From Membranipora membranacea (taxonomy: Eukaryota > Bryozoa > Gymnolaemata > Cheilostomatida > Membraniporidae), in NCBI GenBank assembly GCA_914767715.1, contig OU612073.1:11844001-11904000 (forward strand): DNA of 60,000 nucleotides, read 5' to 3'. A program made the position numbers and the translations under genes. The notes below the pieces were generated by a model that saw nothing but the letters and a program-made list of their open reading frames with translations, ran no database searches and had not been told where the DNA came from. Below are positions 83 through 57,300 of this stretch, in pieces; position 1 is the first letter of the stretch; each line of letters begins with the position of its first letter.

Positions 83-117
83 TTTCAATCAAGGAGTAAA
101 AACCTCTTTGTTTCATT
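83..117. mobile_element. Family A mini-palindrome, copy A1 (diverged)
   Basis: A 21-bp unit at 90-110 starts CAAGGAGT and ends CTCTTTG, so its right arm has decayed. It is flanked by TTTCAAT (83-89) and TTTCATT (111-117), a 6/7 direct repeat. Length and flank size match the better copies elsewhere in the window. It lies just upstream of the first visible FKRP-like exon. Confidence 0.5.
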
Positions 118-207
118 CACTCAATATGTTAATGTTCCGCTGTTAACTAACCCAAAGGCTTCAACCTCTGTGCTAATTATCATTCTGTTGGTCAGGTTAG
201 TAAAATA

Positions 208-3200
208 ATGGATAAATTGGAGTTATCTCAGCGTACCTCAGAAGGGGACAACTCCAAGGAAAAGAATGTATTTCCCAAAGATATTCAAACAGATGTTTGT
301 CCAGAGAAATACAACAGTAGTGATCTGTCAGCTGGCTACCCATTTTTCTACAAAGGTGATTCTCCTCGACCCAAAACCTGTAGTTTCCATTTATAGTCGT
401 ATGCAGTGTAATTAATAAAATTCAAACCTGGTTGGGTTCGGTTTTTGCTAAAGATGCATATTTCATATGCATATTTCACGTATAATTATTCAAGGTCAAG
501 TATTGGCCTGGGGTAACCTCACTAACAATGAACCTAATCAAAACTGAGTATTCAAGTCATTTCTCAGTGGATGTTATATTTTCATACAACCAACTGGCTT
601 GGGACCTGTATTCCAGTAAGCCAGTCAGATAGTCATGACAAATATCCACCATTTATCTTGGAAGAGCTTTCATTTACTGCAAAGATTGTATTAATTGTAT
701 TTCTCAGCTTTGATGATCTCAATGTTATTGTGTCCTGTTGTAGGCTTTAATATGATGGACTGCAAAGGGAAACCACCATTCCACACAATCCTCTCGATAG
801 TCTTCAACTTTGTTCACCTTAATATCAACAAGGATCTGAATCTGCAAAGGATGTTGAAAAATATTCACACTCTACATCCGAACACCAATGTGATTATTGG
901 TGTCACTCGTAATCAAGCGCAGAAACTTATGAAGTCAAAAACAACCCCAACAGTCAGTTTTGTAGAATTCAAAGAAAGGTAATACACCAGGTTTTTTTCA
1001 ATTAGTAAGCGTGCGTGAACCATAGACTTTATGATGATTATTAAGTGTATATGGCCTGAACTAAATTTCTGATTATAGAACACTTTGGCTGGCTGAATCA
1101 CAGCTATACCTGTTGTAAAATATAATACCACTAGCCATGTTTATCTAGATATCAAATTGGACCATATTATCTAAGCAAAATGATTTAAGCAACCACCACC
1201 TCCAGAGCAGCACTGCCAGCTACACCAACATTAGTCTCACTTTTAACTATACCATTCTATTTTAGTTTGTTTTTTCTTCTCCATCAGTCAGAACAGCACA
1301 GGTATCTGGAACTATTTAGTACAAAGTGTCAACACACGATATGTACTTATAGCCCGTGATGTCACACACTTCACATGGCATAGCAGACTGGAGAGGTTAG
1401 TCAGAGAAGTCAGTGAACTCAAGGCATCGGTAGTCGCTGCCGCTCACAGAGATCTTACATCTGGTGTGGTAAGTACATTACCAGTATAATATTTTTTTTA
1501 ATAAAATACAAAATATAATACGATTATAGAATAATACTTATAATATTGTATTACCAGCATTTATATTTTAACTGTTTGGCCCTGATTATTGTAATATAGC
1601 AAAAGACAAACTCTATGACGAGCTCAAAGGATAGCTGTAATATAAACAAGACAAATCTGTGTAAAGGAATACAACCTTCAAAGCCGGAGGTTAAGGGAAT
1701 TTGACAGCAAATTCTTACATAAAAATACGCAAAATCCACCAACTGGGCACCTGGCCAGTTAGGCAGCTAACCTCTCAAATCAGAGGACATACATTGACAA
1801 TCAGTGAAATTATATTCTCTATTTCTCTCAATCCTTCTGATTTCAGTGGAGTGCAGGTTGCGAGCAGTCACAGCTACAGAACTACACACTTGCCTATCAG
1901 GGAGGTTATGACTGGTCTGCACATGAATGTATGGTCTGTGATACAGTTAAAGGTCCTTTTGTAGCGCCTAGTGATCTCTTCAAAAAGGTTAGTTTTAATC
2001 TGAACGGCGAGAAAAATTGCCGATATGTGGTTCAATATTACAGAGGTGTTTTAGGGCACTGGATTCAAACCTTAATTAAAGCATAATTCTAAAAGAATAT
2101 ATCAATGCAAAGCTTTGGAGTAAAAGGAAAATTACTATCAATGTAATTTTTTTTTAAATTAAGATCATCGATAGAATTGTTCACCCATTTTTCTTTGTAT
2201 GGCTTTGGTGTGACTTGGGACTTGTTTAAATAACAAACTGCCACAATCACTATCTGATCGCATTTGCTTAGTGAGCAAACCCTGCCAGAGGTGTTCTTCC
2301 TAAAAAATCTTGATAGAGCTAAACATCATCCGATTGAGTTATTTTGGAAGAATCTGCTTAATTGAGTCTGGATTTGAGCAAAGTGAAATACCAGCCAGAA
2401 CAACATTCAACTAATCCCCCTTTCCTCTCCACAGATGCCGCTGCCGGATGGTATGAATGATGTAAGCGGGTTTGAGACCTGGTTCCTCAAGCTGAATACC
2501 TCGGAGCACACTGTGGTATCCTGTCCTGACTCTATGCTATTTACTAGTAAACAGGCAGAGGGTGAAAAACATGACTGGATGCAGTTAGCAAATAACCTTC
2601 AGGTCTGTGGTAGCTGAGTTGTGTCCGGTTTTTGGGCTGAAAATTGCATACCTTGAACTATTACTTTCATAATACAAGTAAATACAGAAAATTTGAGAAA
2701 GTTTTGAAATTTACACAATTTTTTGGTTGTTATCCAGGTTGAGCGTATCAGACTATCCAGCCAAAAGGATCTCTATTTTACCTGCAAGGAAGCTAATGTT
2801 GACTGTTCTCAGTCTAGGGGCTTTGCTCTCAGTCACTGCTGTATGAATGAGCTTAGCAGTATGATAAAGACCTTCCTGAATTTATGCAAGGTAGGTAACG
2901 ATCGAGACATGAGATAGCATTTATTCAACATTGATATTAACATTTTATTATCAGTCAGTTTTTCTGCTGCTGTTTCATGACCCGCACTGATGTTGAATAA
3001 AAAAAAAATTTGTTCATTTAGAATTCAACGTTCACTCGATTGATTGGTCGACCAAAACAGAAGATTACCAATAAAAATTGGCAGACCATATATTGGATAA
3101 CAATGTTAATTAAATTACATAGCACCTTCCACAACAATTTGATTTGATTTGATATTATAGAGATAAACGAAAAATTTATGAACTTTTAACTGCTTTTCTT

Positions 3201-4814
3201 ATCTATCTTGACTATCTGGCTACTCTTCAGAAATCTGGGAGCATGTGTGAATTACAGGAGGGTACACTGTTAGGAGCTGTAAAGTTCGGTGGTGTTCTAC
3301 CATGGGAGAGAGACGCAGACATAACATTCCATTCCTCTAACTTCTCAGCGATATCAGATCTCAAAGCAGAACTCTCCGAAGCTGGCTATAGGCTAACTGT
3401 CAACAAGGTAAGCTTACGGTGGTGATCCGGCTGTGGTTTTCACAAGAAAAAAATCTGGATGAGGGGAGTCTTTCAATTAGAATGAGCGATGCTTTACTAA
3501 AGCAAATTATCATAATTATGGCTCACTTGGTCCTTCAATCAGACAAATTCGTACCCAAATCGCTCACTCAGAATGAAAATAGTTTCATCAATGAGTGAGC
3601 AATCAGATTGCGAAACTGTCTGATTTTAATACAAAGAATACCTACAGAGGGAACATGAACATGTGTAGCTTAATTATCAAATCGATAAAATTACCAATGT
3701 CTTCTTCTTCTACATGTGAATTCTGCCATCTTTTACAAATGAAAGCACATCTTCGTTTGTTTTTATATCCTTGTTCGTTTGGTCCAGGTACCTTTAAGTA
3801 AGGTACAATTCTTCCCGGTCAGATCATGTTATCTCTTCCCTACGAGCTGCAGCATTGAGTACTACTATATTCCTAAGAAATAATATATATATAATGTTTG
3901 GTGTTGAGGAGTTTTTTTGGCTTCTTGTTATTTCAGACGTTCCATGCAATCCTGTATATGTCAATTTGGTTTACCTATTTTAAAATTTTTATTCCTTAGG
4001 AAACTTGGTGTTGCGTGGATGGCGTGGTTGCTGGTGGAATATTTATGCTGACCAGTGACAGTTGGCATATTGAAATTTACGGACAGCACCTTATGGATAG
4101 TGAGAAGTTACGTAAAGAAAATATATCACCAACATTAGTCCATTTTGATGGACAGTTGGTTGCTACACCTGCCAGTCCGGGTTTATTTGCCCGTAACAGG
4201 TGAGCCATGGACCATGAACCATGGACCAAGTGTTTGTATCGAAATGTACTGTTAACGTGTTGGACAATCCTTTGTGATCTGATTGTGTTTTTCACTAAAA
4301 CCAAATAGAAACATAATATGCACCAAGAGCTGGCTATTGATCAAAGACGATTGAAGTGGGCATGTTCTAAATGTAATGTGCATTTTAGGCAGCGTGCTGA
4401 GGGCCAAGGTATAACTTGGTATAACTTTGTCTCAACACTTTGAATGTGATCTGCCTTATAGGAGTAAATTTATTAGCTAGAGTACAGTTTAGCTAGTTTG
4501 GATGTGATTTAATTTTCACTAGGTTATATGGGTAAATAAATTTTTTCAGTAAATGTTAGCTAGCTATAAATTTCACCAGTTTATGTCAACATGAAACATT
4601 AGAATAGTTAGCTGAAAATCGGTGTTTGTTTCTGTTTGAAAGGTACGGACATGAAATATACCAGCATGCTCAGCACTGGATGACGATATCAGCTAGCTCT
4701 GGCTGGCAATTCTATGAGCCCGGCCAGTTCACTGAGTGTGGAACACCAGGCCATCATTCCTGTCTCGATCAATTTCTTGCTGATGGCAATATACAATTCA
4801 AGTTCCCTCCTTAG
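208..4814 (+). CDS. FKRP-like LicD-family phosphotransferase (9 exons seen)
   Basis: Exons 208-355, 744-978, 1288-1468, 1847-1987, 2435-2602, 2738-2890, 3231-3407, 4000-4199 and 4643-4814 join in phase to 524 codons plus TAG, each with GT-AG borders. The N-terminal half is a stem-like region. Exon 6 has Cys307, Cys314, Cys325 and Cys326, matching the order of the FKRP zinc cysteines (C-x6-C then CC). Exon 7 holds the LicD nucleotidyltransferase motif EGTLLGAVKFGGVLPWERDADI-like stretch at residues 352-373, with acidic residues E368, D370 and D372. The family transfers polyol phosphates such as ribitol-5-phosphate to glycans in the Golgi. There is no membrane anchor in the visible N-terminus, and a splice-acceptor-like CAG ends at 195, so a type II anchor exon probably lies upstream of the window. 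It could also be another invertebrate LicD paralogue rather than the true FKRP orthologue. Confidence 0.82.
1013..1061. mobile_element. Family B mini-palindrome, copy B1
   Basis: The unit 1021-1053 begins CATAGACTT and ends with a decayed inverse, AAGTGTATATG. Flanks GCGTGAAC (1013-1020) and GCCTGAAC (1054-1061) match at 7 of 8 bases, like a target-site duplication. It lies in intron 2 of the FKRP-like gene. Confidence 0.6.
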
Positions 4815-5039
4815 CATTAACATAATTAACCACTGTGCCATTCCTGCTTTCTGATAAGTAAAATGTTTTATCTTCTTAGAGTGTCTCCAATAATGTTCCA
4901 AGTCTCCATTATTGCAATGCTCAAAAATTTCCTTGTATATTCATGTTGATTATCTAATGAACTTGAAGAACGCACAATGTAAACTTTCTCATCAACCATG
5001 TAGTCCCTCGCTTATGTGGTGCTACAGTTTTTGCCATGA

Positions 5040-5045
5040 AATAAA
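5040..5045 (+). terminator. Candidate poly(A) signal of the FKRP-like gene
   Basis: AATAAA lies about 225 bases after the TAG at 4812-4814 and just before mini-palindrome A2. It is the first exact hexamer downstream that I noticed. Functional use is inferred. Confidence 0.4.
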
Positions 5046-5050
5046 TATTA

Positions 5051-5091
5051 GTATAACCAAGGAGTAACAACCTGTTACTCCTTGGTATAAC
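5051..5091. mobile_element. Family A mini-palindrome, copy A2
   Basis: The unit 5058-5084 (27 bp) has perfect 13-bp arms (CAAGGAGTAACA plus its complement) around a short centre. It is flanked by perfect 7-bp direct repeats GTATAAC at 5051-5057 and 5085-5091. Confidence 0.75.
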
Positions 5092-5141
5092 ATCATACAC
5101 CTCTCCGAACTGATCAATCTGATTGATGTTGTCCAAGATAT

Positions 5142-5199
5142 TATTATGTATATTATATATTATATATTATATATTATATATAATATTATATATTATATG
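5142..5199. repeat. AT-rich simple repeat (TATAT/TATTA)
   Basis: A tract of repeated TATTATA units, low complexity, in the spacer downstream of the FKRP-like gene. No coding meaning. Confidence 0.85.
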
Positions 5200-6651: not shown

Positions 6652-8050
6652 ATGTATTTGCGAATTTCAGATCAGAAACTTGGTATAGATCTCCAAGTTC
6701 ATGGTGAAAATCATCCAGTCATTGCTACCAGCCATGAAACCAAGGGTAATGAATACACCAATGAACTAGATAAAGCTCTGGATTGTTATCAGAAGTCTTT
6801 TGAAATCAGATTAGACTCCTTGGGTGAGAATCATCCCGATGTAGCTAATAGAAATACGTACGGTAATAAAGCAGAATTTGATAAAGCCACTGAATATTAT
6901 CAGAAGTCCCTCAAAATAAGGAGAGAGACTTTAGGAGATAATCATCCTGATGTTGCAACCACCTACAGCAGTATGGGACTAGGCTATGAACATAAGGGTG
7001 CACTCGAAAAAGCACTGGAATATTACCAGAAAATGCTAAAGATTAGACAGGACACTCTAGGTGAAAATCATCCAGATGTCGCTTTATGTTACACTAACTT
7101 GGGACTAGTGCATGGCAAGAAAAGTGAAAATGACAAAGCTCTAGAATACCACCGTAAAGCGCTCAAAAGCTATCTAGAGACAGAAGGTGAAAAGGATATC
7201 ATCGTCGCTGCCTCTTACAACAATCTTGCTCTAGTATACTACGCTAAAGGTGAATATGATCTAGCCCTGGAATACTACAATTAACCCCTTCCGATCATAG
7301 TTGAGCTGTTGGGTGTGGATCATCCCCATGTTGCACTCACTTACAACAGTTTAGGATGCTTGTATACTGACAAGAGTGATTATACGAAAGCCCTGGATTA
7401 TCACAATAAGTCGCTCACGGTCAGATTGACTACGGAAGGCGAGGATCATCCTGATTTAGCTGAATCTTACTGCAACATGGGTGAGTCCTACCGCGTCCAC
7501 GGGGATCAAGACAAAGCTCAGGAAAATCTTAACAAATCGCTCACCATCTGTCAGAGCAAGGAGTTAAAGACTCCTTGGTCAGAATGTACACTTCGTGGGT
7601 GACAATAAGTCTATTTTGGCCAAGGATTATAACAATAGAGGGGTTCTGTGCAAAGACAAAGACGGCTTGATGAGGCACCGAGACATCACAATAACGCTCT
7701 TACTTTGAGACTGGATACTTATGGTGAGAACCATTTCGGTGTAGCAGAGTCTTACAATAACATCAGTGAAGTGTGCATCCTCAAAGGTGAGCGAGATAAA
7801 GCGAGGGATTATTTCAATAAAGCAATCGCTATGAGACTGAGAGCACATGGCGACGCTCATCCCAAGACCCAAGGTAGCAGATACCTTCACCCACATTGTA
7901 TTACTTAGTGAAGTAGAAGGAGATCCCAATGCAGCATCAGAAAATTGCCAGAAAGCTCTTGATATCCGACAGCAGAAACTTGGGTTTGATCACCCAAAGG
8001 TTAAAGACACGCTGGCGGTTGTACTAAGATTGAAGACTGATATGGAGTAA
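6652..8050 (+). pseudogene. Broken TPR-repeat protein (kinesin-light-chain/nephrocystin-like)
   Basis: A continuous stretch encodes about nine 42-residue TPR units with the signature LGENHPDVA...YNN.G..Y..KG..DKALEYY.KSL.IR, typical of kinesin-light-chain/nephrocystin-type TPR_12 repeats. Such repeats bind protein partners. There are no introns. The frame is broken by TAA at 7282-7284, by insertion of mini-palindrome A3 at 7557-7577, by a frame change near 7660, and by a 7-nt tandem duplication (CCCAAGA repeated) near 7860-7872. One repeat, around residues 65-72, has lost about 6 residues in frame. The final TAA is at 8048-8050 and an AATAAA follows at 8287. Intronless structure plus decay suggests a retrocopy or a dead member of an expanded family. 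Sequencing error is possible for single shifts but not for all of them. Confidence 0.85.
7550..7584. mobile_element. Family A mini-palindrome A3 inside the TPR pseudogene
   Basis: The 21-bp unit 7557-7577 (CAAGGAGT, five bases, ACTCCTTG) is flanked by GTCAGAG (7550-7556) and GTCAGAA (7578-7584). Unit plus one flank is 28 nt, which shifts the frame. Reading across without them gives TICQ-NVHFVGDNKSILAKDYNN, an in-register TPR unit. This shows the unit was inserted into a formerly open frame. Confidence 0.85.
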
Positions 8051-12200: not shown

Positions 12201-15200
12201 AGTCAGCCAAGATTATTAGTAGATGATTAGAAAATCAAAATCAAAACAAAATGTTATTGGAAGTAAGTGAAGAAACCATAAAGTGAGTTATTGTCCAGCC
12301 AGCACCTGCAATGTATCAGAGTTTTGTTAGAAGCTGAATAATCACCAAAACCATGAAGCAACGAATATGGCTGTCTCGGTGTAGAAGAAGCGCATGACGT
12401 TCTATACTTACTGAGAAATAAGATAAGTCATCTTCTTATTTCACGATATAGTACAAAACATACATAGAACTTTGATTTGAGGGGCGTATTTAAATTTTTA
12501 TTAGCAATTAAAAATGGAACCTCTGCATAACAATTTCACTATGCAACTAAGTACAAAAAGATTAGTACATTAAAAATATAAATTAAAAAATGTATAGATA
12601 ACAAAATACAACATACTTTGCTTTGCAAAGTAATTTGCCAAGGAAGGTATGTATGGCGACATTTATGATTCTGATGTGCTTACAGCTGTTTGAAACCTTT
12701 TGATAATGAAAAGAAACAGATATTTGCGGAAAATGGAATATAAAACATGCAAGAGAAATTTGTAGCCGGATAAATATAACTATTTCTGGTTCACCAGAAT
12801 CAATGTCAGTCAAGACAGGGAGGATATATTATGCTTTATTCAGCAGGTACACTGAATATAATCTGACTTAATAATAACTTAAATATTCTCAATAGTTTGG
12901 GGCACAACTCTAAATTGAATTGTTTTCTAAGATCTTTTGCGTTTTGCAAACGGTACTTCTTCAATAAAATGAGCTTGCAGCTTTCCTTTAGCTGGAATCT
13001 AAGGGGTCGTCAGAATCTAGTGTAAAAATTATTGCACAAAAATATTGCTGTAGGAATGTACATATTTTGATTGCGGGGAAAGCTAGTGTCAGGCGATTTA
13101 TGATACTGGGTTAGGTGTCTACACCACCACAGTGCTTGAGAACAGGGAGGGTGGGAGGTATATCCCACCCTCCCTGTTGAGATAGAGCAATAACATTACC
13201 CACAACTATCAAACATTGGAATCCTCTACTAAAATATAAAATCATAAAACGACATGCAAACACGGTTATGACAACATCGATACAACAAAGGATCACACGC
13301 GATATTATTCATAACGAAATCTTATCAGTTTAAAAAGTTGTCTTCTCTCCTTGTATGTATGAGCGGACAACTGACATCAAAAAGAAAATTCTAACATTGG
13401 ACCGGATCAGTTCCACTCAAACTCCACTCACCGGCCATGGCAAAAACAACAGATTGTTATGGAGAGGCCGATAAACTTGGTGCTTTTGTAACCTGCCTTG
13501 CAGCAATGATCATGGAGGGAATTTGATCTAGGGCTATTAGCAATGCGATGGCAGGGAAAATACAGGCTACATGCAACGACACAACGGGAAGGGAGAGCTA
13601 GGACAGATAAGAACCAGCTTAAAATTCTAACAGTCTCCATTTCTTACATTTTCAGTATTCTTATCAACAATACATTGACTAAACTCCAAGTTTAAGCAAA
13701 GTTATAAAAACTTAGCAAGTAGAGCTAGATAAAATTTGATTCATTTTCCTGTGTATTGAGTTGCTTCCGGGAACGCTGCATGCCTGTGGACCAGCAGTAC
13801 CTTAAGATACCATATGGGCTACATGTGGGTTTGGTAGAATTACAGGCTGTAATTTGCTGTTGATCTCAACGACGCAATTACTACACACAGAAATAAACAA
13901 AATGAAACACAGCGCTATTGAAATATATAATAAAACTAATTGTGTATATAAAATTGTAGAAACTTACCAGAGCCGTTGGAATGTCTATCTGGAGGATTTT
14001 CCTCGTCTGTGAGAAGTATAGCTTGCCTCTCTTCTTCAGTCAACATCTTACATGGCTTCTTTGGACCATGATTTGCCATCACCTGAAGAAAGGATGTAAT
14101 CAATATGAATTTAATGAAGAGAGAAAGTAGAGTACCACAATTCAAAAGACTTAAGTTTGCATCCGGTGTCTTTTATAAAGCAAAACTGTGAACTGGCATT
14201 GTAAATTCTTTTGAGGCGCAGTTTGCTACAGTTTTCGTATAATCTGGTTCCCAGCATGGGCCGAGTAAATAGTAAGGCTATGTGACTAATCTGACACTTC
14301 TGAATTCATGTCAATTGTAAATGTATACAATATAAGACTGATAATACTACGGAGGAGCAGCCTGTTATCTTTAATAAATACCCGTTTTTTGCATAGATAT
14401 CAAAGCAGGAATCAATCTAACTGATGTTCATGGACCAATCTATGTGATGCATTTGCTACTAAGCAAAGTCAGTGTGTTTCCACTTGGGTCTAGCTATCCT
14501 ATGTAGTCTGATCTTTTGAGCACCTCATGGGATTTTCATAAAATTTGAAAATATTTATTTAGAAATATGACAGCTGAAACAAAACACTACAAATAAAGCA
14601 CCAAATCAAACAATTGATCAATCATTTATCATCTTACACTACTAACCTCTTGCATGGCCTTGAGTACATTATTAGGCATATGATCATCAAACATACTGGG
14701 TGATACTATAATCTCATCAAACATGCCGTTATCTGCCCAGATGGCCTGATATAACAGCTCCTTGGACTTCTTACCTGTGAACAAATTAAGTATCCACACA
14801 TTTATTAAAGATCCACACATTTCAATAGGCTTTCGATGACACAAAACTAAAATGATGTTATGTAAAACATTGTTGTCTGGCTTGCAACAATATTTATATA
14901 ACTGTTAAAGCTGGTAAAACTTCTGATAACAGGCAGATTTTTGTAGAAGCCATATAGGATGGGCAAATGTAGAATGCAACCCAACGCCAGGTTGCACAAA
15001 GTGAATATCATCTGCTATTTCCCTGGCTCTATATGAGACCAAGAAAGAAGTAGTTCTTGACCAATGAGCAACGGGTTCATGCGTTAGAAAAGAATCACTT
15101 GTCAAAAGTACAGAGAAGATCGGTATGTGTAACTGTATGTGTATGTGTGCGTGTTGTATAAGTTGTGAGGGTTTAATTAGATCAGAAACATATGGGGCAA

Positions 15201-18200
15201 TGGTTACCTCATATTCTAACATCGCTTGAAAACGAATCACAAGATATCAGCTCCAAATTTTAAAAAATTTGAAATGAATTTAACAAGCAACCAATCTATC
15301 ATCCAATTTTCTGGGTTTTGGAGTTGTTCCCTCTCACGCAAACAGACTGGGATTGTCATGAATTGCAGGCAAACTTATTGATCGAGGTCAAGTAAATAAT
15401 TATAATGAATACAATAATACACTGGTACATACTGCACTTACCTTGAGGATAATTTTTGACGATATGTACAACTTTACCAGGCATGAACATGGCTTTATGT
15501 GATGAACTGAGAGCTCGAGATTGGAAAGGATTGTAATTCTGAGATCTGCTTCTAGGTAGGGCGCCTTCTGCTCCCAGCCTCAAACATCGACGCAATAACG
15601 GCAGAGTAGAGGCTAAAATTCTCCACTGTAAACAGGAGTTAAAGAATGTTAATTTGAGGAGTGACTTGTAACAGTAAATAGGTGTCATATGTTGATTGAA
15701 CGAGCACTTGGATTGGTCGAATGGTTGAATGACCTGATTTATTGGTAGTTGGTTGTCAGCGCCTCTGGTTTGTTGGATAACACTGACGTTCAATATGAGC
15801 AGACCAAAACTGATATTGAGATCACACTATTACCATAATTGTGAATCTCTGAATGTAAGGGTCAATTTAGTCTGAGTCCCTAACATGTGCCCACCCCTAA
15901 TGCTAGAAGTTGATCTTGGGTCATCACAGCTAATTTTCCTAGGGAACTTAGGCGTCAATGAACTCTTGTTCCATCGATCAGAGACATACCTACAATAGTA
16001 TATCACGTCAATGTGAGGAAATGGGTCAAACTTGGTCTAGTGAGGAGCAAACATACCTTAGGAGTAGATGATGTCTCCAGCAGTGATAATAGATCTGATC
16101 TGAGGTATTCTAGTTGAGCTAACCCTAGACGAGGTATCACATCTTTACCTAACACTACTGATGTGATAAACTTTTTACTCTCCTCCATTGCTTCAGGGCT
16201 ACAATATGGAAAAAATCAGGTCAACTCCATAATATGATAGATTATTTTGCTCTCATTTGAGCCTGAAATGCCACAATGGCTAAATAACTGGTTTGCTGCC
16301 GTTAAGAAAGTTAGGAGTTAGTTAGTCAAATCATTATTCGAGATTAAACAAAGAAAAATAAAATTGCCTATATTTGAAGGCATAATGTTGGAGCAAGTTA
16401 GTTTGTCTGTTTGCAGGCATATTATGAATGACTATATAACTTGCAGTATTAAAATAAAAATAAAAATTATAAAAATTTAGCTAAATGACTGGTGTGGAAT
16501 AGACAGTTTTCTGAGCTCTTATTTATGCCTCCATTCGGAGTTGTCCTCTCTCCAGTTTGGTACCTTTAACCCACGCCGCATAGGAAAAACCTGCTGAAAG
16601 AGGGTTATCTTGAAAATCGCTAATGTTAGGATAAAAATGATTTTTGATTCAGAGTCTGCACCATTGAAAACCCTGTGAGACAGGGTTTCCAAATCATTGG
16701 AGGCTTGAACGTTGATCAATCTTACTTTTAGTGACGAAACTCATGGAAAATTCTGCCAAATTGTCCGCAAATCAGGCAGAAAATGCTATAATTGACTATC
16801 CAAATACTAAAATTATTTCCCAAACTATGTCCACATGAGTTTTCAATGTTGCAGATTCTGAATCAAAAATAATTCTTATCCTATTATAAGCGGTTATCAA
16901 GATAACCCTCTTTTCAGCACGTTTTTTCTATGCGGCCTGGGTTAACAGTACCAAACTGGAGAGAGGACAACTCCGAATTGAGGTCTAAATCAGAGCTCAG
17001 AAAACTGTCTATATTACAGATGATCAATTGGACAGTTATGAGTAGTGATGAGCATGTTGGTAAGTACTTGCGAGTGCACGGCTTTGTATTTTAATGTAAT
17101 ATATTTATGTTGACAGGACTAACTTAAGATGGATGGCAGGCTGCGTCATAGTTAGGAAAAACATCCAATATGCTACAAACACAATATTCTGTGCATGAAA
17201 GCAAGCTAGCATCATCAAGTTACTAAAGCAGTTGACATGCTCTAGGACTAGATCAATTGTGATCCAATTTGCTGCATTTAAGGTCACACATAATCTACTA
17301 ATAGGTCACCATCAGCTCGAGGGGGAGCAAATCCAAATGTAGAGAAGTTGAATCAAACCTGATAACCTAAGCTCCGATTATCAACTTAAAAAAATTGAAA
17401 CTTCAATTAGAGTTAACTGACCTGAGTAAGCCTCCAGGAGGTGAGTATGAATAGCAATATAATTGAGGATACTGTTCTCTTAACAAGAAGGCAATAAGAG
17501 CGGCAACTCCTGCTCCAAGGGAATGGCCTATTATTAATAAATTGTAGCCCATTGTCTGTAAAAGAGAAACATAAACAATTGAGCCATCTAGTTGTATTGG
17601 GTTGGACCTTTCCGGAAGCCATGCAATGTAATGATAGTCGAGAGCCACAACATTTCCAAACGAGGTTTCCATAGCTCCAAGCAGCAGCAGCCCATACTTA
17701 TTATGAAAAAGGCTCATTTGTAATACATCAATTAATTTTGGAGTTGTTGGTACATATTCTAGACAATTCTATTTATGCTGATAAATCAAATTGATCACGA
17801 CTCAAAATTTATTGCAGAATGCACATCACAGGGTGTAGAACAGGTAAAATAGCATTACAGTGTAGTAACTTACAGGGCAGCGAGAAAATGCTGTCTCTAA
17901 GGCTTTAGTCTGCTCTAATTCATCTAATATATTCTGAGCTGCAGTTATCATTCCCTGAAATATAGAATGACATTGTTGTGTATTCTAGTATCAATTTTAA
18001 GGAATCAATTCACAAGGATAAGACAGCAAAGGCCCAATGATGTATTTCAAATTTATTTACCTTTTTTTGTGGGGAAGCAGATTATTTCCTGCTTGGGATT
18101 GCCTCCCTTGTAAAACACAAACTAGTCAACAAGTCACTCGTTTACAAGGGGGCTCAGTGTTCCATATTGGAACCCCGTCGGACTGCTGAGCTTCACAATG

Positions 18201-21200
18201 GCTTCCAGATGATGCAAAGTTTGTAACATAATTTAGTGGACACATTATGGCAACATCATGATTTTGTTTGCAGTTAATCCATGTCTCACCATATGCCCAT
18301 GCCATGTGGGTTGAGCTGGATTGACTTTGATCTCTTCAGAATCTCCCTGAAGGTCGATTAGTGTATCAGAGAAGCTCATTGTACCTCTTACACATAGTAA
18401 TACTTTTTTATGTTTATGATCTAGGCATACATAATAACTCGGCATCCCACACTGCAAAAATACATTTAGTTAGTACATCAAGGACTATTATAATAATATG
18501 ATATATGATACATGATATATGATATGATATTATTTACATATCATATTCATATCATGTAACATTATAATTTCTCATCAACTTGAAGAGCGATAATATCATG
18601 TCATTGCAGTCATGTGAATTGTTATCATTACTATGCAGTCTGGAAAATCCAAAATGAAATTGATCAACAGGAAGGAAACGAAAAATTATAACAAAAAGGT
18701 AGAACTAAACTAAACAGTTTGAGCACACTTCCAAAGCCATCTTCTAGCATTGAGCGTTTTGGTCGAAGGGTTAGTAATGGTATTTACTAATTCATTTAAA
18801 TGAAGAAAGAAAGAACTAAACAGCTTACTTACCTCGTTCTCATAGTTTCCATATATAAAGTCATCCTCGTCTACCATAGGGGAGCCGGCTTTTATAGACA
18901 TGTATTCACATTGACAGCAGTTGTCTCCTTGTAACGTTATGTCAGGATTGTGAGAGGGACAGCATCGACATCTGTAATATAGCAAATCATTTCAATCCAC
19001 CGATTCAATCTTTATTTAGACTGTAAATGTTTTCACATTTATATGCGAGATTTGAACGAGTGTTTATGAAGTGAAAGGCCTGCCCTGGAGTAATGCTAGG
19101 AGTAACTAACAGCAAGAGCTTGGAACAACTCGTGTCACCTCATCAAGAATGAAGGAGAAGGTGAAATCGATTAGAATGCTTGACATTCACTGGTAGACAA
19201 TTTCCAGGCAAAGCCCTAGTGAGGCAAACTCAGGATAACTGCAAAAATTGTTGCTGTATTTCATAAGCTGTAGGCTCTGTTATGATCAGCAGCTATCATC
19301 CCCAGAGGGTAGGAGGAGCAACGCATGCATTTTGCCACTTTACATAGTGGATAATAAGCAGATAAGGAGAAGATATAGTTGGTTGAATGGCAGGAGTTGA
19401 TATGGATGGAGGGGAGAAGCTGGCCACAACTACAGTTCGCCAAAAAGCAGGCTTATTATTATGTCAGACTAATTATTATGTCAGGCTGTTTAAGACGCCC
19501 CTAAATCTTTTCTAGTCACATGTTGTTGTTCTCAGAGTTGACAGTGCAACTTTCGAAAAAAAGTGAAGCTAGGGAGAAGCAGAAAAAGGTTTTTAAAATT
19601 TTCTCCAACTGTGTTCAGACCTTGAATTTGAACCATCTGTGAATTATAAAAGCAAAGTCATCCATCAACAACAGATCTTTAATGTCGTTGTTAAAATTCA
19701 TACTATTAAATGAAATTTAAAAAAGCATCGGGAGTTACGTTGAACTCTAAGACAATGCAAAGATATGTGTAGCAACTATGGCTAAAGGGAATTTAATTTT
19801 TTGTAGTCTTTAGGTTTACAGGTATACAAAGCAGATTTGTGGTTGAGTGTCAAGACGATTAAAAAAAGAATCACTCGCTAAATTTGGACTTATACCTAAA
19901 TTGCAAATTTTTGATTGACTCACTACTTGCTGGAGATTGAATAATGACCCCCTTCCATCAACTCTGAATTGATTTGTGACTCATCCGCCATGAGTCAATG
20001 GAAGAAAGTCATCAGCTGTGATTAGATTTCAAAAAAATTACAAGTCAGACAAGATTTAGCGAGCATACGTCAATGAAAAACCTGCGCACATACCTTCCAC
20101 ATAGGTTGACTTTACAGCAGGCTTGACCAGGGTAGAAGTAACACTGACCGGCCCAGCCGTAGGCGGCTGTGGCATACTCCATAAAGTGAACCATACACTG
20201 AAACTCACACTGCAGGTTATCATCCTTCAGGGTGAGAAACTTTGTACGAGGGGATATAGCCGCCCCTGATAGGTACTGATACACATCGTTAGTCGGCTAA
20301 AATTCATCAAATTCATGTACTGTGAAGCGGCTGCTCAATTAAAACATTGAATTTTTTTAGCAGAAAGGGCTTGAGTACAATCCTAACCATTGTAGTATGA
20401 TCACAAATTTTTTGAGACTCTACTATCCTGTTTGTGCAAATTTTTTGCGGGCAATTTAAAATTCAATTGAATTGGATAAAGTTCGAGTTTGAGGGAGGGA
20501 GATCCGCCACAACCTTTAATACAGCCAGGTATACTCTGATTGTACCTAAATAACACCAGGTGAAGTTGAAGCAACGTGAAAAAGCCTTCATTATTCAGCA
20601 TGACATACCCTATTTAATAAAATAGCAAGCAAATTATTTTTATTAAGTTGATGGGTAACGGTTGTTGTAGCTATTTGGTTTTCTTACCCTCATAACGTCA
20701 CATCATTACGTCACATCATAACGTCACATCATAACGTCACATCATAACGTCACATCATAACGTCACATCATAACGTCACATCATAACGTCACATCATAAC
20801 GTCACATCATAACGTCACATCATAACGTCACATCATAACGTCACATCATAACGTCACATCATAACGCCACATCATAACGCCACGTCATAACGTCACGTCA
20901 TAACGTCACGTCATAACGTTCATCTTAACGTCACAGCATAAAGTCACATCATAACGTCACATCATAACGTCACATCATAACGTCACATCATAACGTCACA
21001 TCATAACGTCACATCATAACGTCACATCATAACGCCACATGATAATAGGGTAAACAAATTTCCCCAGCAAATTTCCCAAGCCTGCAAACCATCAAATCAT
21101 CCCAGCAAGTGCCCCTTCCGTGCGTGTTCGATTGCATGAACAGGAAAGTTAAACAAAGGGCAACTTAATAATTCAACTGTTAAACAGAGCAGCGACATAA

Positions 21201-44300: not shown

Positions 44301-47300
44301 CCTCATTACAATCCGTGCTGTTACTATGATTTTCAGTACTCGATACCAGATAGTATATCCATCATAATTGAAGTCGTCTCTCTTCTCTATTTTGGTGAAT
44401 TTAGACACAAGCCATGACAAGTACGATAATGAGAAAGATCACAATACGTGAGGCGAAGCGGACATTTAAAGTGGCTATCATCGGCTCAAAGGGCGTCGGC
44501 AAAAGTGGTGAGTAGCAAAATCTAAATTAGATGTTCCATATTTTATCTACTTGAATAACTCAATTGTATAAAATTGATTTCGCAGCCTGATAAAAAGGCA
44601 AAACTTGAAAACTCTTTAATCGTTTTTCCGCTTTCTCAATTTCTCAAGACGTATTTTATGTATTTTGATAAGGCCAACACCCCAAACAATGTCTTCTCAT
44701 TTAGCCCTTGCTTGAATTAAATGTGATAGAAAAATCAAGATTTTTCCAGGCCAACAGTGTTACATTTAAACAAATCCTCTAGGATCCATTTTGATTTGTA
44801 CCAGTAAGAATCAAGTCTATCACATTGCTCTTCACTATTTTGGTGAATCAAAAATGCGGTTCCTGCATTAAGTATAATACAGGTAATTACAAGAGACAAT
44901 GTTGAACATCAATAGCTAATTTGGATGATTCAGAAATATTTTTCATGTTTAAAAACATGAAACTCTTGACGAACTGTAACACTTTCAAAATGTTTGATTT
45001 GAAGTCGCTAAAGTGCGGCTCAGACTTACCGTTGCCCATTTCTGTCATGCCATGTTGTGGAAGATTAAGAAGTATGTGCCCAAGGAGTTTGAATCTCCCT
45101 GATGTGCCTAGCACCAACAATGATATATTTATGATATAGCTTCCAAGTATTTGAGGCGCAATATAGCAACAAAATCTCGTTTTTTGATCATACTTCGAAT
45201 TTTGAAATCAAATATGTCTGATTGAGTTTCTGGTATTTTGGGCTGAGATGGTACACACTTCAGATTTCCTGTGCTAAGTGCTCAAGTTTGTCCCCTTATT
45301 TCATGATAGTCGGAGTTACTCTTCTCTCATGGTGTTGTGTAAAGTCTTGTTGATCCACATAGGCTGTCATGTGTGCATATCAATTTCTTGAAGTAGCTTC
45401 TTGTCTGATATCCAGATAAAAGTATATTAGTTTCAAGAGCTTTTGAAGTAATCGGTGATATTTCAAAATATCTGTGACCTAGTCGCAAAATAATGCTGAA
45501 AATGTCAATTTAGGGGCACATGGCTCAAGTGTTCCTCTCGGCTGGATTGATACAGGAGTATCTTGCTATAGACAGCCATCCCAGTTGCAGATTTTTATCT
45601 TTATAACCATCTTGACATTGCATAAGATTGCCCTATACAGGGGCTTTATTGGGCTCTTATAAAGATTTCAAGTGTTTAGCTATTGGCGATTCTTTCCAAG
45701 TGTGCCCCTCGCTATATCCTTACAGTCTCATCATCCGACAGTGGAACTGGGCCATTCTGATCTAAACTGACTCCCAGAAAACTTGTGAATTGCACCACTT
45801 TTGAAGGGCTTCAAGCGGTTTTGATGACTCTCAAGCCAAGTGTGTTTATTCTCATGTCCAAGTTTTTTTTTCATGTGAACACGTAGCAAGGTCCAGAGGG
45901 TAGCGAGTACTGTTGAGACTGTATGGACAATACTTGAGCAATTGAAGTCAATTACTTTAAAATGATCTGAAAATTCAAAAGATTGCGTAGTTATTTGAAA
46001 CTCCTACTAAATCAAATTCTACCATGTCCCACAATAGCTGTGCTGTTCCTTGATGTAGATACCAAATCAAAAATAGTCTCTAAAGACAGCTTATATTCAA
46101 CCTTTCATGTTCTAGGGTTTAACTTTTGACGATATAGTATCACCATTTATTATGTTGACACTGTCTATTTATATGATTTTATTGTGGATTAGAAATGGAA
46201 GTTTGAGAGGTACGAAGAGTAGTAGGCCTAACCATAAACATATTTAATATATTACATACAATACATCTATAATAACTATAATACATATATCCATAATGTT
46301 TGAGGAGGTAGAAGCGTAACAAAATTTAGTTGTATGGATCATGTAGATAACGGAAAAAATTGTCCTTATCTCAATGAGTTGTAACAAATAGATTCTTATA
46401 GGTCATACTAAAACAAAAGAATGCACTTTGCATACCAAACCCTCTTGGACTGAGTAATTTCCGCATTTTTCACAGATGCTGCTTGCGCAGTTAGGTATTA
46501 CTAGTATTGATAAACATACATGCTTTGTCAATTTTATAGGGCAATAAATTTCCTACATTGCCTGTCCAAATTACCCTTATGTTTTGATTTTATGATGCAG
46601 ATGGCCTCTCCTCAATTTGTAATTTTGTGGGCGGAGGCGAGTCAGTCATGAATCTGATATGTATCAAAACAATACTTCAAAGACCTTTGTTACCCATTCC
46701 ACGAATGGCTTTTGAACCTCAAAATGCAATTTAAATTCTAGATCAGACTTTCTTATGAGTTTCTTTGGTACATAATTAATTGTTTATCTGTCTAATATTT
46801 TCTCTTTTCCCACAGCGATGACAGTCAGGATAAAAACGAGAAAGTTCATACACAACTATGCACCAAATATGGAGAGTAAGGTTCAATTCAGTACAGCCGT
46901 GGATGAAGACAGTGTCAATATAGAAGTACTAGACATGGCAACATTGCAAACTGCAGAAAATGCAAAAATCGAAGAGAAAATTAAATGGGCTGATGCATTC
47001 ATACTTATGTACTCAGTCACTGATAGTGCGAGCCTGGCAGATTTAGTTGGTGAGTTACTAGTTGAGATTCATACAGGTTTATACGGCCAATAAAACAAGA
47101 AATCACTTGGTTTATTATATATATCACATCAAGTGTAATATAATAATCACTAGGATTCATTTACGGCCAATATCACATAATATAATTTTGCTAGCTTCGT
47201 CTGTACTTTAGTCCCAAAGTTTTGGACTAGAATTCAACCTCAATATCCCTAAGTCTGGGCAGGCTGTCGGGGTAGGTGTCCCTCTCCCACACCCACTTCC

Positions 47301-52200: not shown

Positions 52201-53298
52201 TCGAGCTCACCCTTTTCATTTGTAGTTCTCTCAATCTCTTGAGCCTGTCTTCTTTTTTTAGATCTGCAGCAAACTTTTCAGCTGGAGTAGCAGTTGAGGA
52301 AGTCTGAAATGTGAAATTCATTTACAATAGAATCAGCTGATTGAGAAAATATTCAAAAGAACATTTTTAAGCCTATGAATTTTAACTGACGGGCCTTTGA
52401 CATACTTCTGTTTGGTAATTATTAATTAATTAATTGTCATTTGTAGGTGATAATGGTGTTGCGCTAAGAACCCAACCGGATGCCTATTTGGCAACCACCG
52501 GATGTCCACATACCATCCAGTGGTTGCCATAAGGCATTCGGTTGGCACTCGGACAACCGCCGAATGCAAGATAGGCATCCGGTTGTATAAAAGGAATCCA
52601 GACACTAATTTGACAGAGGCAGCTGGGTATGTAACAGAGAAGTATGGGTTGGAGACACTCATCATCAGATCTACAAACCCATCTGGATGCCCGAGTGCCA
52701 ACCGGATGCCTATTAGGCAACCACCGGATGCCACGCGGACATCCAGTGGTTGCCTAATAGGCATGCGGATGGGTTTGAGACAGTCACATTTTGAGATTAC
52801 AAGGTGAAATGGATGACCAGTTGGCACTGCTGGATGGGTATTTCTCATAAGCGGACGGCCCTTTTACAGAAATGAGTGGCGGATGGCCGTTTTTTCCGAC
52901 ACTATTTGAGCATAACATATGGTGGTGTATCCATAACTCTACCAACCCATATTGGTACCCGAGATCTGATGATGGAGACAAGACTAGGGTATATTAGGAT
53001 ACAACGAACAAGCTACTTGGATCTAACTTAGGCACAGTAGAGATAGAATAAGAATGAGTTTTGACCTGGCATGTCTTGACAAACTTATTACTCAAGCTCA
53101 AGGGAACATATACCCCCCATATATTATACATACTTTTTCAGTAATATTATTTTATTATACATATATATATAATATATATATATATACAACTACAAGCTCT
53201 GTGTTTATTTATTGGACTTGATCTTCTACCTCAATTCGGCCATAGGAAAGAGGATAAATTACATTTAAATGAATCATGAAATTACTCACGGATGCCAT
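49300..53298 (-). CDS. SYF2: Pre-mRNA-splicing factor SYF2 (7 exons)
   Basis: Exons in transcript order: 53298-53290, 52303-52211, 51903-51762, 51358-51257, 50603-50513, 50078-49977, 49465-49300. They join to 234 codons plus TAG (human 243). The first coding exon holds only MAS. Conserved stretches: [12 protein letters not shown], the acidic-basic helix [19 protein letters not shown], and the end [20 protein letters not shown]...[12 protein letters not shown], which closely follows human SYF2. SYF2 is a mostly helical NTC-associated component of activated spliceosomes in the nucleus. The transcript is divergent from the mannosidase gene and convergent with the Ras-like gene. Confidence 0.96.
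52472..52985. repeat. Nested hairpin cluster in SYF2 intron 1
   Basis: Two homologous hairpins: arms 52472-52504/52513-52545 and 52698-52730/52740-52772. Each is built from a 33-bp motif (AACCGGATGCCTATT.GGC then AACCACCGGATG) in both orientations. A fifth partial motif lies at 52554-52585. Further inverted matches (ATGGGTTGG, CATCATCAGATCT) lie at about 52642-52675 and 52935-52985. Open frames on both strands here follow from the symmetry and are not taken as coding. Confidence 0.8.
53152..53187. repeat. (TA)n microsatellite
   Basis: A run of alternating TA with one AA interruption, in SYF2 intron 1 close to the first coding exon. Confidence 0.9.
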
Positions 53299-54399
53299 AG
53301 TGCTTTTTTGTCCTATTCTTTGTAGAATGTTGGTAGGCAGGGAGTGGTTTACACTGCTTTATTTCAGTAGAGTTCTCTCTAAAAAGTTTTCACAATCCCT
53401 TGTTCAGTTGATATGACCTTGAACCATTGACAAATTTATAAACATCATCTAAGTTATCTTTCTGAATTCACACATCAATTAAGATTTTCCACGTTCTCAG
53501 TCTATACTTAATCATTGGGCTTCATAGAATACCCCGACATAGATAAAACTTAGATTTAAAGAAGTTTGGTCTAAATTTGACTGATGTGGACACAAAAATC
53601 TGAAATGAGTCATTCACACATTCATTGATAGTCTGACTCATATTGAGAGTGTCTGGACTACACTCCCCCTGTCTCACTTTGATGTAGTGTCACTTATCAT
53701 CTTTGGAACAGTGAGTATTATCTAGAAGCTTGAGGCAAGGAGTACATCTTGCTTGAAGGGAGCTTTTAGATAGAGTGCAATTCCATTATTATTATGAATG
53801 ACAATGACATGTAACCAATGTAAACTCACTCTCAGCTCAGCTCATTGATTCAACTCACTCTACAACTCATATGACTTTGGCATTTCCTGTGATACTACCC
53901 ACAATTAACTTACCTTAACTTTTATTCACTATCATCATGCATCTTCTATCTAATCTATGTTCTTCATGCTCATGCTGATCAAAGATAATTATAATAGGCT
54001 ATTATTTGATAGAATGCTCAACTTCAATCAATGTAGTGAAGGAATCATCGGAGTCTAAAAGTAGTGCAAAGTAATTCCTAAATTATAAATCATTGCATGT
54101 TCATTCCAGACATAGCCATTCTGGTTAAGTTCAATACAATAAGACCTACGAACAACCAGAATGGCCTGGTGACCAATGAACTAGTTCATTGTGATTGAGG
54201 TAACAGTAGTCTGCTCTGCTCGCACATAATGTCTAATAATCAACTGAGTAAGTTACAAATGATATTGTTACCTCTTGATTAACTCAAAGCAATGCACTCA
54301 TTGCTCGAAGCCTGTTCAAAGCCTTGGGAATGATTTTCAGTTTCATCGATCAGCTGATCAGCAATGTCATGTTTTTGCTTCTTAGGTCAAAGAAAAAGG
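53299..54399. promoter_or_regulatory. Divergent 5' region of SYF2 and mannosidase
   Basis: 1.1 kb between opposed start codons. An acceptor-like TTCTTAG at 54379-54385 precedes the mannosidase ATG by 14 bases, so that gene has a 5' leader exon further upstream. No core promoter motif is convincing. Confidence 0.4.
54115..54165. repeat. Short hairpin in the SYF2/mannosidase spacer
   Basis: Perfect 12-bp arms GCCATTCTGGTT (54115-54126) and its complement AACCAGAATGGC ending near 54165. There is no flanking duplication, unlike families A and B. Confidence 0.45.
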
Positions 54400-57300
54400 A
54401 TGTATATTTTCCGTGGTGCAGCGTTACGGAAAGCTGGCGCGCTTCTCTTTGCAGCTGTGCTCATCTTAATGTTATTCAAGTTCTATCACTATACCCAACA
54501 GCTCAATCAGTACAAACCATCTAAAGAATTTCTAGAACAGTAAGTGATCTAGAACAAGTTTGTTCCCTCTGCGGCGGCGGAGTTACATTGCAAAAGTCTG
54601 GTATCGAGGCGCCTCATTTGATCAATTTTTCACATGGTCACTTTGTCAAAGAAGGCAGTGTGCTTTGGCTTAGGCTATTAGGCCACACCACAAAAATGCA
54701 AACTAATACTTCGTTCGAAACTTCAAAGCTAGGAGGGTGCTTAAACTGATGTTTCTTTACTTTGGCTAACAAAACGCCTTGTAGGTTCCAGCTCATCATA
54801 ACCATGTGCTGTCATGAGCAATACAGAATTTAACTACACTATTGTGTTCTGCGCTGAAAGTTGTTCAATTAAAGCAATTCAGAGTAATTAGTTGGCCCAA
54901 GCTTTGACTAGCCAATTGAAAAGATTTTACATATATGAGTTTTGTTTGTTTTGTCAACATAGAAACTTTAGTTTCTTTCAATTATCAAATATGAGTTAAA
55001 TAGTAAGGAAATTGTGAGCAAAGTTGCAGATCAGGTTACTCCAAGGAGTTCCCTCTAACTCCTTGGTTACTCCATGCACCTTTATTGTCACTTTCGAATT
55101 TGTAAAATAAGGTTTCAAATACTGCTTTGTATTGAACGCTATATTTATATCAGTAGGCCTAACCTTGTGAAGTAAATTATGATTTCATTTTCTAGATTGA
55201 ATATTAAGAGATCCAAAGACAGTCAGCTTTCTGCAAGAAAACCAGACAGTCATAAACATGGAGCACACAAGGAGCATCACAAACCAATTTTAATCACCCC
55301 TGTTCCCCTATCGATAGAGGAAGATCCGCAACCCGCCCCTGGTCTAGCCGGTAAGATTGGCCCAATCAACGGCGGCGATGAAGCTCCAGGTTTGCTATCC
55401 AATCAGAATCAGCCTCATCTAGACTATGACAATAAACAGGTACCTCCAGGTTACAGGCGGGAACAAGGTGAACCCCAGGACGCTAGAGAGATAGACAGGC
55501 AGGGTGCTGAGGCTAAAGGAAAGGATGTTGTGAACCCTAAAGGGGCAGTGCCTGATGCGAGGGAGATGGAGACTATACCTCGTGATGCTGAACAGGAAGC
55601 CAGAGATAGTATAAAACCATCACAACACAAACCACCGGATATGAGTAATATAATGCTACCCAGAGTTGATACACAACCTAAAAAGGTATGTATGGTTGGC
55701 TCCGAAAAAAATGCAGGAAAAGCCCTGCGGAATATCAAAGACTAATTCTTCTTGATGGTTGTATATTGTAAGCATCTGACTCTTTTTTTCAAGGTGGTGT
55801 TTTGGGTATATTGCCTTTTCCAATCACCATTGAAATCAGGTAGGCCCTTCTGGTTTTAAAATCCTCTCATATACCTAACCGTCGCTGATGTTAGGCTAGT
55901 GTTGGCCTTCCCAACTGTAGCATCATCGGTCTCTTTTTACTGTTCGCTGGGCCGTTATCAATGAACTATCTTAGTCTGAATCAGTTTCACCTAGTCAGGT
56001 GTTGCACTGTTTTATACCATCAACCCATTCAGCTGCTCAATTGTTTTAGATAAGACTATACTACACGCCTACATGATTTCTAGGAAACTTAATCTTGATG
56101 CATACAAAGTTCATTGCTTCGGTTTTTCTTCTTCATCTTAATTATCTGACTAATCTAGTTGTGGTGATGATTTCCAGTAGGTCAATCCAGCAACATAGTA
56201 TTAATTATTAGTTTTGACAGGATATGAAGTCTTAATATTAATTCCCATTCCGGTACCAAATGCTTTATGTAAGAGCATTCATGAACCTAACAGAAGAGAA
56301 AAAGTAGTCCATGAATGCCTTTGCTGGAGAATGATCAGTCTGTAATGGTTGGTTGTTAATCACTCACTGTCATATGCCATTCCCCTCCCTCTTCCAATTC
56401 TGACGAACAATGCAGTAGGTTGATTTTCTGATTTATTTTCAATTACAAGATTATCAATTCAATTTTGCTCAGGTGATATTGCAACCTGAATTAACATAAA
56501 ACTATCATTACATATGCTATTCTCAAAAAACTGATGTGAGATGGATTGATGGGAAAGCCTGACGTATCTTAGCTACTGATTTACTATTTCTGTTTGATAC
56601 TTTCTGCTACATCATACCAATTTTTTATTACCCTAGATGAGTGAAGTATTCGCAATAGGCAAAGTTTGCCACATTACACATGCTTGAAATAGCTAACTTT
56701 AAGGCTAGCTAATATCTACTCAACCTCACTACTTGGTATAGGCTCCCATAGGCAAAGTTTGGTCAATTCGCCTGCATCCGGAGTTGATGCCGGAGGCAAA
56801 GGCCTTCTGCGTGACTAGTGGAAGATATCAACTATTGGCAATTTGATCAAGGCTTCCATGTCAAGTAGCCAACAATTAGTACAAACAAGCTAAACTAAAC
56901 TCAACTAACATTTACTCCTCTGTGTCCTTCCAGGAAATGCCACCACCCGTCCCTGGTACAGAGGCTCAGTGTTATATGGGTAGGAATCGAGCTAAGGAAG
57001 AAGAATGGATCAAGAAGTCCAAAGATACGAGCAGCCAGTCTTCACCGGAAGACACTCAAAGAGCTGATAAAGTTAAAGAGGTAAGTTCTTTAGGATGGCT
57101 GATGCCACATAATAGAGATTGGTCTAGGAAAGGTGTTCGGGGATCTGGTTTCAGTTATTGGTATGCTAGTTGATCTGTACAGGTTGGCTTATCCCTGCTT
57201 TGGCAGTCCGCCAACATTACAGGTGATTCACCAAATCAGTGAGGAAGGATAGAATTGTGACAGAATTTGCTTATGATCAGGGGAGTTTATAACATAGGCT

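Follow-up and report, generated by a model that had tools for sequence, protein, structure and literature searches.

Short palindromes with 7-bp flanking duplications in Membranipora membranacea as probable excision scars of P-superfamily transposons

The transposase of the P element cuts one strand at the element end and the other 17 nt inside it, which produces long 3′ tails (as described in PMC7776569). In the end-joined excisions of Drosophila P{wa} listed in Table 1 of PMC2895639, a target-site duplication (TSD) is followed by up to 17 nt of the element end, a microhomology or an insert (templated in some cases), the inverted end and the second TSD copy. Galileo, a P-superfamily transposon of Drosophila, is described with a 7-bp TSD and the target consensus GTAGTAC (PMC2775673). 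A stretch of 60,000 nt from contig OU612073.1 of the bryozoan Membranipora membranacea, called here the window, contains nine short palindromes flanked by 7-bp repeats, referred to as family A; loci labelled L001 etc. are stretches fetched elsewhere in the same assembly.

The palindromes are read here, with a probability of about 0.86, as scars left by the excision of P-superfamily, Galileo-like transposons and healed by end joining at microhomologies. Most scars can be read as two pieces of one element end, and they are insertions with 7-bp duplications. The family A transposase would be of P or Galileo type, with tails of about 16 nt and repair of the polymerase-theta type, as judged from sequence. 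The junction anatomy is the same as that of P{wa}, for which long 3′ tails and, in flies, a dependence on polymerase theta are reported (PMC2895639). The P{wa} excisions of that report are laboratory events at one locus with an 8-bp TSD and the end CATGATGAAATAACATA, whereas family A comprises thousands of inherited scars with a 7-bp TSD, around 16 nt kept, another end sequence and a putative role of polymerase theta. The nine copies in the window are the following.

90 to 110, unstranded: family A scar, imperfect arms, 21 bp; TSD TTTCAAT/TTTCATT (6/7).
5058 to 5084, unstranded: family A scar, 27 bp; TSD GTATAAC, perfect.
7557 to 7577, unstranded: family A scar, 21 bp, within a TPR reading frame; TSD GTCAGAG/GTCAGAA (6/7).
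13143 to 13176, unstranded: family A-like scar, 34 bp, end type CAGGGAGGGTGGG; TSD TTGAGAA/TTGAGAT (6/7).
22222 to 22242, unstranded: family A scar, 21 bp, left side of end type CAGGGAGTTTGGGAC; TSD AGCAAAC, perfect.
27801 to 27821, unstranded: family A scar, 21 bp, reverse complement of the 7557 scar; TSD GTCAGAC, perfect.
35205 to 35262, unstranded: family A scar with long filler, 58 bp, right side reading as end CAAGGAGTTTGAGACAA; TSD TACAGAC/CTCAGAC (5/7).
45081 to 45101, unstranded: family A scar, imperfect arms, 21 bp; TSD ATGTGCC, perfect.
55042 to 55065, unstranded: family A scar, 24 bp, end type CAAGGAGTTAGAGGGA; TSD GTTACTC, perfect.

All nine copies reported by the first-pass annotation were found again by direct reading, with flanks identical at 7/7 positions in five, 6/7 in three and 5/7 in one. 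Five are exactly 21 bp long, as had been noted (90, 7557, 22222, 27801 and 45081), and the remaining four measure 24, 27, 34 and 58 bp. The arms CARGGAGT/ACTCCYTG were originally given as shared; both arms are exact in only four of the nine, and in copies 90 and 45081 the 8-nt arms pair at only 6/8 positions. The window holds four exact-pattern copies, where the genome average would be less than one per 60 kb.

In the assembly of 339,339,785 bases, the pattern CARGGAGT-N(0-20)-ACTCCYTG is found at 3,946 places, against 6 for the pattern read backwards as a control. The flanks were compared in 49 distinct exact-pattern palindromes from the window and the fetched loci, which were picked by their core alone, with the flanks ignored. 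Perfect 7-bp repeats flank 32 of these, and repeats of at least 6/7 flank 44. At other spacings, a perfect repeat is found in one of the 49 for k=4 and in none for k=3, 5, 6 and 8-12. Flank identity reaches 91% for k=7 and lies at 20-29% for the remaining spacings in the range 3-12. When the left flank of one copy is paired with the right flank of another, 7/7 is reached in 0.13% and at least 6/7 in 1.6% overall. Five copies match at fewer than 6/7; one of these (in L002) sits inside a longer scar whose own repeat is perfect. In 263 kb, a scan blind to the family gave 25 palindromes with perfect 7-bp repeats, 24 of which start with CA, and none in one block shuffle; 200 kb of this sequence was fetched around known copies, so that the density is biased and the flank test is not.

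Each palindrome marks an insertion site. The earlier interpretation, independent insertion events with 7-bp target duplications instead of segmental duplication, holds at genome scale, the excess of 7-bp repeats over control being present in the sample of 49. Segmental duplication was rejected as a general cause: a few scars travel in larger repeats (L017 at 5324, L035 and L050 at 2063 share flanks), and the rest are not explained by it. TSDs of 5 bp also seemed to be in excess (36, compared with 5 in a shuffle). This was set aside, since 13 of the 14 rows from a rescan with exact arms over slightly more loci are the same scars displaced by one base; among the original 36, inspection covered the rows within this rescan.

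The palindromic form could also be that of hairpins kept for a host function, for instance RNA or protein binding, with flanking repeats due to coincidence or selection. This is barely conceivable, given that the 7-bp repeats differ between sites and fit only k=7, that lengths vary and that the scar at 7557 interrupts a TPR frame. As it stands, this frame ends about 15 codons past the scar start. When the 21 bp and one copy of the TSD are deleted (28 bp in all), the frame is rejoined and runs on for about 40 codons, TPR-like in their first part. The TPR gene carries other stops, and the rejoining supports the insertion boundary and says little on function.

The TSDs of family A are similar to those of Galileo. 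In the 32 perfect ones, T occupies position 2 in 26 cases and A position 6 in 29. Position 1 takes G, C or A in 30 and position 7 takes C, G or T in 30, and the middle three positions show no strong preference. The target consensus nTnnnAn is close to the GTAGTAC given for Galileo, which shares the 7-bp length (PMC2775673), and one family A TSD is GTAGTAC itself. A 7-bp duplication is indeed uncommon among DNA transposons, as was first remarked, but it is already known, in Galileo as described in PMC2775673. Two traits of the P superfamily are present in family A: a TSD of 7-8 bp (44 of 49 at 6/7 or better) and ends starting with CA (24 of 25 perfect cases). The likeness to Galileo is one of TSD length and consensus, and no Galileo-like transposase is tied to family A. 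The word “footprint” does not occur in the Galileo paper (PMC2775673).

The first-pass annotation regarded the 21-bp palindrome as the mobile element, which is not supported. The 49 exact-pattern copies are 16-31 bp long, with 21 bp in only eight, and the longest scars reach 58 bp. Longer scars that bear filler are found at L009 9288-9342 (55 bp), at L002 1501-1538 (38 bp) and in the window at 35205. Since the copies share neither length nor centre, 21 bp is not the unit. The centres read as end-joining junctions or carry filler, which in some scars repeats pieces of the ends.

For the junction model, eight ends no longer than 17 nt were taken from the scars themselves and applied to 54 listed exact-pattern places of the 3,946. 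Joined without an insert, two pieces of one such end account for 42 of the 54. The pieces overlap by at least 2 nt in 27 of these 42 (13 of 25 distinct junctions), compared with 4.9 of 42 expected from random joins, which never exceeded 13 in 2,000 trials (0/2000 as high as observed). The model also accounts for 23 of 34 centres of at least 5 nt, compared with 0.5 after shuffling. The commonest joints are AC, in the 21-mer, TTAA, in the 18-mer, and TA, in the 16-mer, and the window copies 7557, 27801 and 55042 fit the model exactly. Up to about 17 nt of each end around a microhomology or filler joint, the anatomy of a P excision scar, is what these sequences contain, with the reservations on circularity and on locus L006 given below.

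It has also to be considered that the palindromes are mobile themselves, as tiny miniature inverted-repeat transposable elements (MITEs) of 16-30 bp, made of two facing ends only and moved in trans by a P-type transposase. The perfect 7-bp TSDs, the thousands of copies and the identical 21-mer in both orientations at the unrelated sites 7557 and 27801 would all agree with this. However, MITEs are near-identical short elements with shared internal sequence, while the scars range over 16-58 bp and have heterogeneous centres, which follow microhomology joining for the most part, or filler that repeats end pieces. Recurrent 21-mers are expected in any case if one microhomology is preferred. Moreover, P transposition needs internal binding sites and spaced ends, which is impossible within 16-21 bp, and self-mobile palindromes are very unlikely. 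The P-MITEs of Anopheles gambiae, as described in PMC1562414, are likewise short, non-autonomous P relatives of high copy number, but they have an 8-bp TSD and real internal sequence and are not 16-58-bp junctions.

How much of the end is kept can be followed with the 16-nt end CAAGGAGTTARAGACA, which is found at 334 places genome-wide and at none in the control. In 100 listed of these places, the opposite end lies within 35 printed nt in 62, a copied-in end piece in 16 more, a looser match only in 6 and neither in 16. Nucleotide 17, in the 36 insert-bearing rows where it does not start the opposite end, is A in 11, G in 10, T in 8 and C in 7, without a consensus. As the pattern requires the first 16 nt, this shows that little is kept beyond 16 nt, not that 16 nt is the commonest length.

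Two of the 16 rows with neither, L056 and L057 (350 bp each), have 83 bp in common at 86% identity, starting exactly at CAAGGAG and surrounded by unrelated flanks. From nucleotide 17 onward they read AGGAGATG. Among the other 98 listed rows, two continue with AGGAG before they diverge, possibly as filler that was copied in from the end. L057 contains a 106-bp element with an inverted end matching at 13/17 and a TSD TGCCGAC/TGCTGAC (6/7), and a pair with at least 12/17 and 6/7 occurred in one of 3,000 shuffles. It is a short non-autonomous member with family A ends. No right end was found for L056 within its 350 bp, and the only family A relatives found are the element in L057 and one further matching end.

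Scars of the related end types CAATGAACTCCCTC and CAATGAACTAAACC occur at the following places, with 7-bp duplications that are perfect except in L051 (6/7).

L003, 43 to 74 and 2075 to 2095: scars of these end types.
L009, 9414 to 9439: scar of these end types.
L051, 6286 to 6306: scar of these end types.
L052, 86 to 127 and 248 to 279: scars of these end types.

Family A seems to be one branch of a larger group. The loci L050, L051 and L052 themselves bear family A or related CAATGAAC scars.

A second family of scars, family B, has the signature CATAGA..TCTATG and 8-bp repeats. Outside the window it is found at L001 1964 and at L006 46 and 81, and within the window at four places.

26676 to 26699, unstranded: family B scar, 24 bp, CATAGACTTATTATTAAGTCTATG; 8-bp TSD ATTTACTT, perfect.
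27538 to 27562, unstranded: family B scar, 25 bp; 8-bp TSD ACTAAAAT/ATTAAAAT (7/8).
23381 to 23443, unstranded: family B scar with long AT-rich filler, 63 bp; 8-bp TSD AACCGAGC, perfect.
58991 to 59027, unstranded: probable family B scar, 37 bp, without an 8-bp TSD (2/8).

The P-transposase RNase H domain PF21787 has 134 matches in this genome and none in 14 control genomes; the 134 are a lower bound, and some are pieces of one gene. Parents were searched for in ten stretches around these matches and one upstream extension, and three full-length elements of family B were found.

L045, 284 to 6255: full-length family B element, 5,972 bp, ends CATAGAGTTATCCCCC; perfect 8-bp TSD.
L054, 250 to 6230: full-length family B element, 5,981 bp, ends CATAGAGTTATCCCCC; perfect 8-bp TSD.
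L046, 289 to 5221: full-length family B (B2) element, 4,933 bp, ends CATAGACCTACTAATAATAAACC in inverted repeats of about 510 bp; perfect 8-bp TSD TGCTGATC.

The elements in L045 and L054 are 98.5% alike and have the TSDs AGGAAAAC and ACTGCACC, so that the duplication is perfect at each of the three elements and different from one to another. The L046 protein contains THAP, P-type helix-turn-helix (Tnp_P_element), RNase H (TNP-like RNaseH_N) and GTP-binding (GBD) domains and matches the solved Drosophila P transposase 6p5a with an E value of 1.9e-13, while only PF21787 was seen in the transposase of L045 and L054. The family B parents are P-superfamily elements, as indicated by the transposase domains of L046 and by the CA-starting inverted ends and 8-bp TSDs of all three. 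The family B scar at L001 1964-1988, with TSD GGTGGCAC, is made of exactly 10 nt and 15 nt of the L045 end. Since both family B scars and full-length parents are found, P-type elements with known parents leave scars like those of family A in this genome. Two family B scars stand in tandem at L006 46-107, with ATCGCAGT, ATCACAGT and ATCACAGT as their flanks; this arrangement would be expected if a second element had inserted into the duplication of the first and both had then left.

Family B resembles Pdre2/THAP9 of zebrafish, which is described as P-like, with ends starting with CATA and an 8-bp TSD (PMC10983969). The zebrafish system differs in its at least 50 P-homologous sequences in the genome and in having been studied by plasmid excision tests, and its enzyme leaves larger flanking deletions in S2 cells (PMC10983969). 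Galileo, as described in PMC2775673, is similar to L046 in its long inverted repeats but differs in the 8-bp TSD of the latter.

The scars could, alternatively, come from a transposon that does not belong to the P superfamily but likewise leaves long tails; it would represent a superfamily not yet described that duplicates 7 bp. The search for a family A transposase found none, and the tail looks like 16 nt and not 17, both of which would fit such an origin. On the other side, the ends start with CA and the scar anatomy is that of family B, whose parents carry a P transposase, the TSD has the length and consensus of Galileo, and the genome has the 134 P-transposase matches. A non-P origin is unlikely on this evidence.

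Several observations speak against family A scars being P excision products. No convincing autonomous family A parent was found among the ten of 134 P-transposase matches, and scans of L047/L050/L051, L048, L049, L052 and L053 gave no convincing matching ends with a TSD around the transposase (L055 is 99.4% like L049, and the end scan covered L049). The link between family A and a P transposase is therefore drawn from the TSD, the CA.. end, the anatomy of the scars and the case of family B. In family A the tail seems to be 16 nt long, compared with 17 nt in Drosophila P. The family B scars of L006 match the L046 end through nucleotide 19 with one mismatch, so that the cut-off is not sharp there, and those of the window match both parents exactly over only 6-10 nt a side. 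The fit of the junction model is partly circular, its eight ends being derived from the same scars, and 12 of the 54 scars are not explained without an insert or mismatch. A looser model, in which the two sides may come from different ends, covers 49 of 65 scars: 46 of the 54, and 3 among the 11 longer or imperfect scars that were added manually. In the window, 5058 deviates by 1 nt, 22222 by 2 nt and 45081 by 5 nt, 35205 carries long filler, and 90 and 13143 are outside the set put to the model.

Candidate pairs of ends were rejected in two cases. A pair spanning L050 and L047 (9.7 kb, ends 8/10, TSD 6/7) was not accepted, as its left end is part of a complete scar that has a 6/7 TSD of its own, and two weak pairs in L052 with unrelated ends (GCTAAC, GTATTG) were taken as chance. 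L047 contains at 2611-4875 a P-type transposase reading frame of 754 amino acids, in a repeat of at least 6.1 kb that is 99.4% identical on C3 and C11 (L047, L050 and L051) and whose ends are beyond the reach of the fetched stretches. The 26 proteins found as relatives of this transposase bear P-type transposase domains. Upstream, L050 has the same scar-bearing sequence as L017 and L035.

By analogy with Drosophila P, the formation of a scar from a P-type transposon may be pictured as follows. A transposon with CARGGAGT... ends inserts and duplicates 7 bp of the target, as the TSDs indicate. The transposase would then excise it with a long stagger, such that around 16 nt of each end stays as a 3′ single-stranded tail; such tails are suggested by the end pieces that the scars retain and by the stagger of 17 nt in Drosophila P. 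The two tails would be identical in sequence and could pair only at short stretches that are complementary by chance (AC with GT, TA, TTAA). End joining of the polymerase-theta type, suggested by the form of the junctions, would trim, anneal and fill the tails and sometimes copy filler from them. The expected product is a TSD, up to about 16 nt of the end, optional filler, up to about 16 nt of the inverted end and a TSD, a near-palindrome of 16-60 bp. The scars of family B, with their 8-bp TSDs, would arise likewise from P transposons with full-length copies in the genome.

Other features of the window are listed here.

744 to 4814, plus strand: gene of a LicD/fukutin-like protein, eight exons joined.
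17403 to 17768, minus strand: exon of a class 3 lipase, probably diacylglycerol lipase-like.
20690 to 21045: tandem array of the 13-bp unit TCATAACGTCACA, 27.5 copies.

The LicD/fukutin-like protein has its best match in the bryozoan Watersipora subatra (56%), and Bugula neritina is also among the matches (41%). A further family of short imperfect palindromes is present in the window at 27316-27352 (CACTTATATG../..ATATCAGTG) and in L009 at 7272-7301 (CATTGATATA../..ATATCAGTG), with the perfect 8-bp duplications CCTACAGC and TGTGCAGG; these are probably scars of a third element family.

Such scars have, to our knowledge, come from laboratory experiments on single loci, as in PMC2895639; the kind of scar is already known, and its natural genome-wide abundance is unusual. 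The literature searched on bryozoan P elements, 7-bp TSDs and natural scars, in which subscription journals are thinly covered, holds precedents only, and among the papers listed there none describes natural genome-wide scars in its title or abstract. In flies, P elements are restored by sister-templated gap repair. It is tentatively proposed, at slightly less than even odds, that in M. membranacea the scars of family A, with 3,946 exact-arm copies, vastly outnumber surviving elements, that excision followed by end joining was the rule in the germ line and that the family A enzyme staggers its cuts by 16 and not 17 nt.

For annotation, the palindromes are a warning, as they resemble absurdly small MITEs yet are remnants. 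They show the former sites of elements that are now rare or lost, one of them inside a gene, where the 28-bp scar shifts the frame. Read as excision scars, they record how the animal repaired its broken chromosomes. Because thousands of them are present in one assembly, and most of those sampled are certified by their TSD, germ-line end joining, including the choice of microhomology, filler and tail loss, can be read statistically and without experiment in an animal far from flies.

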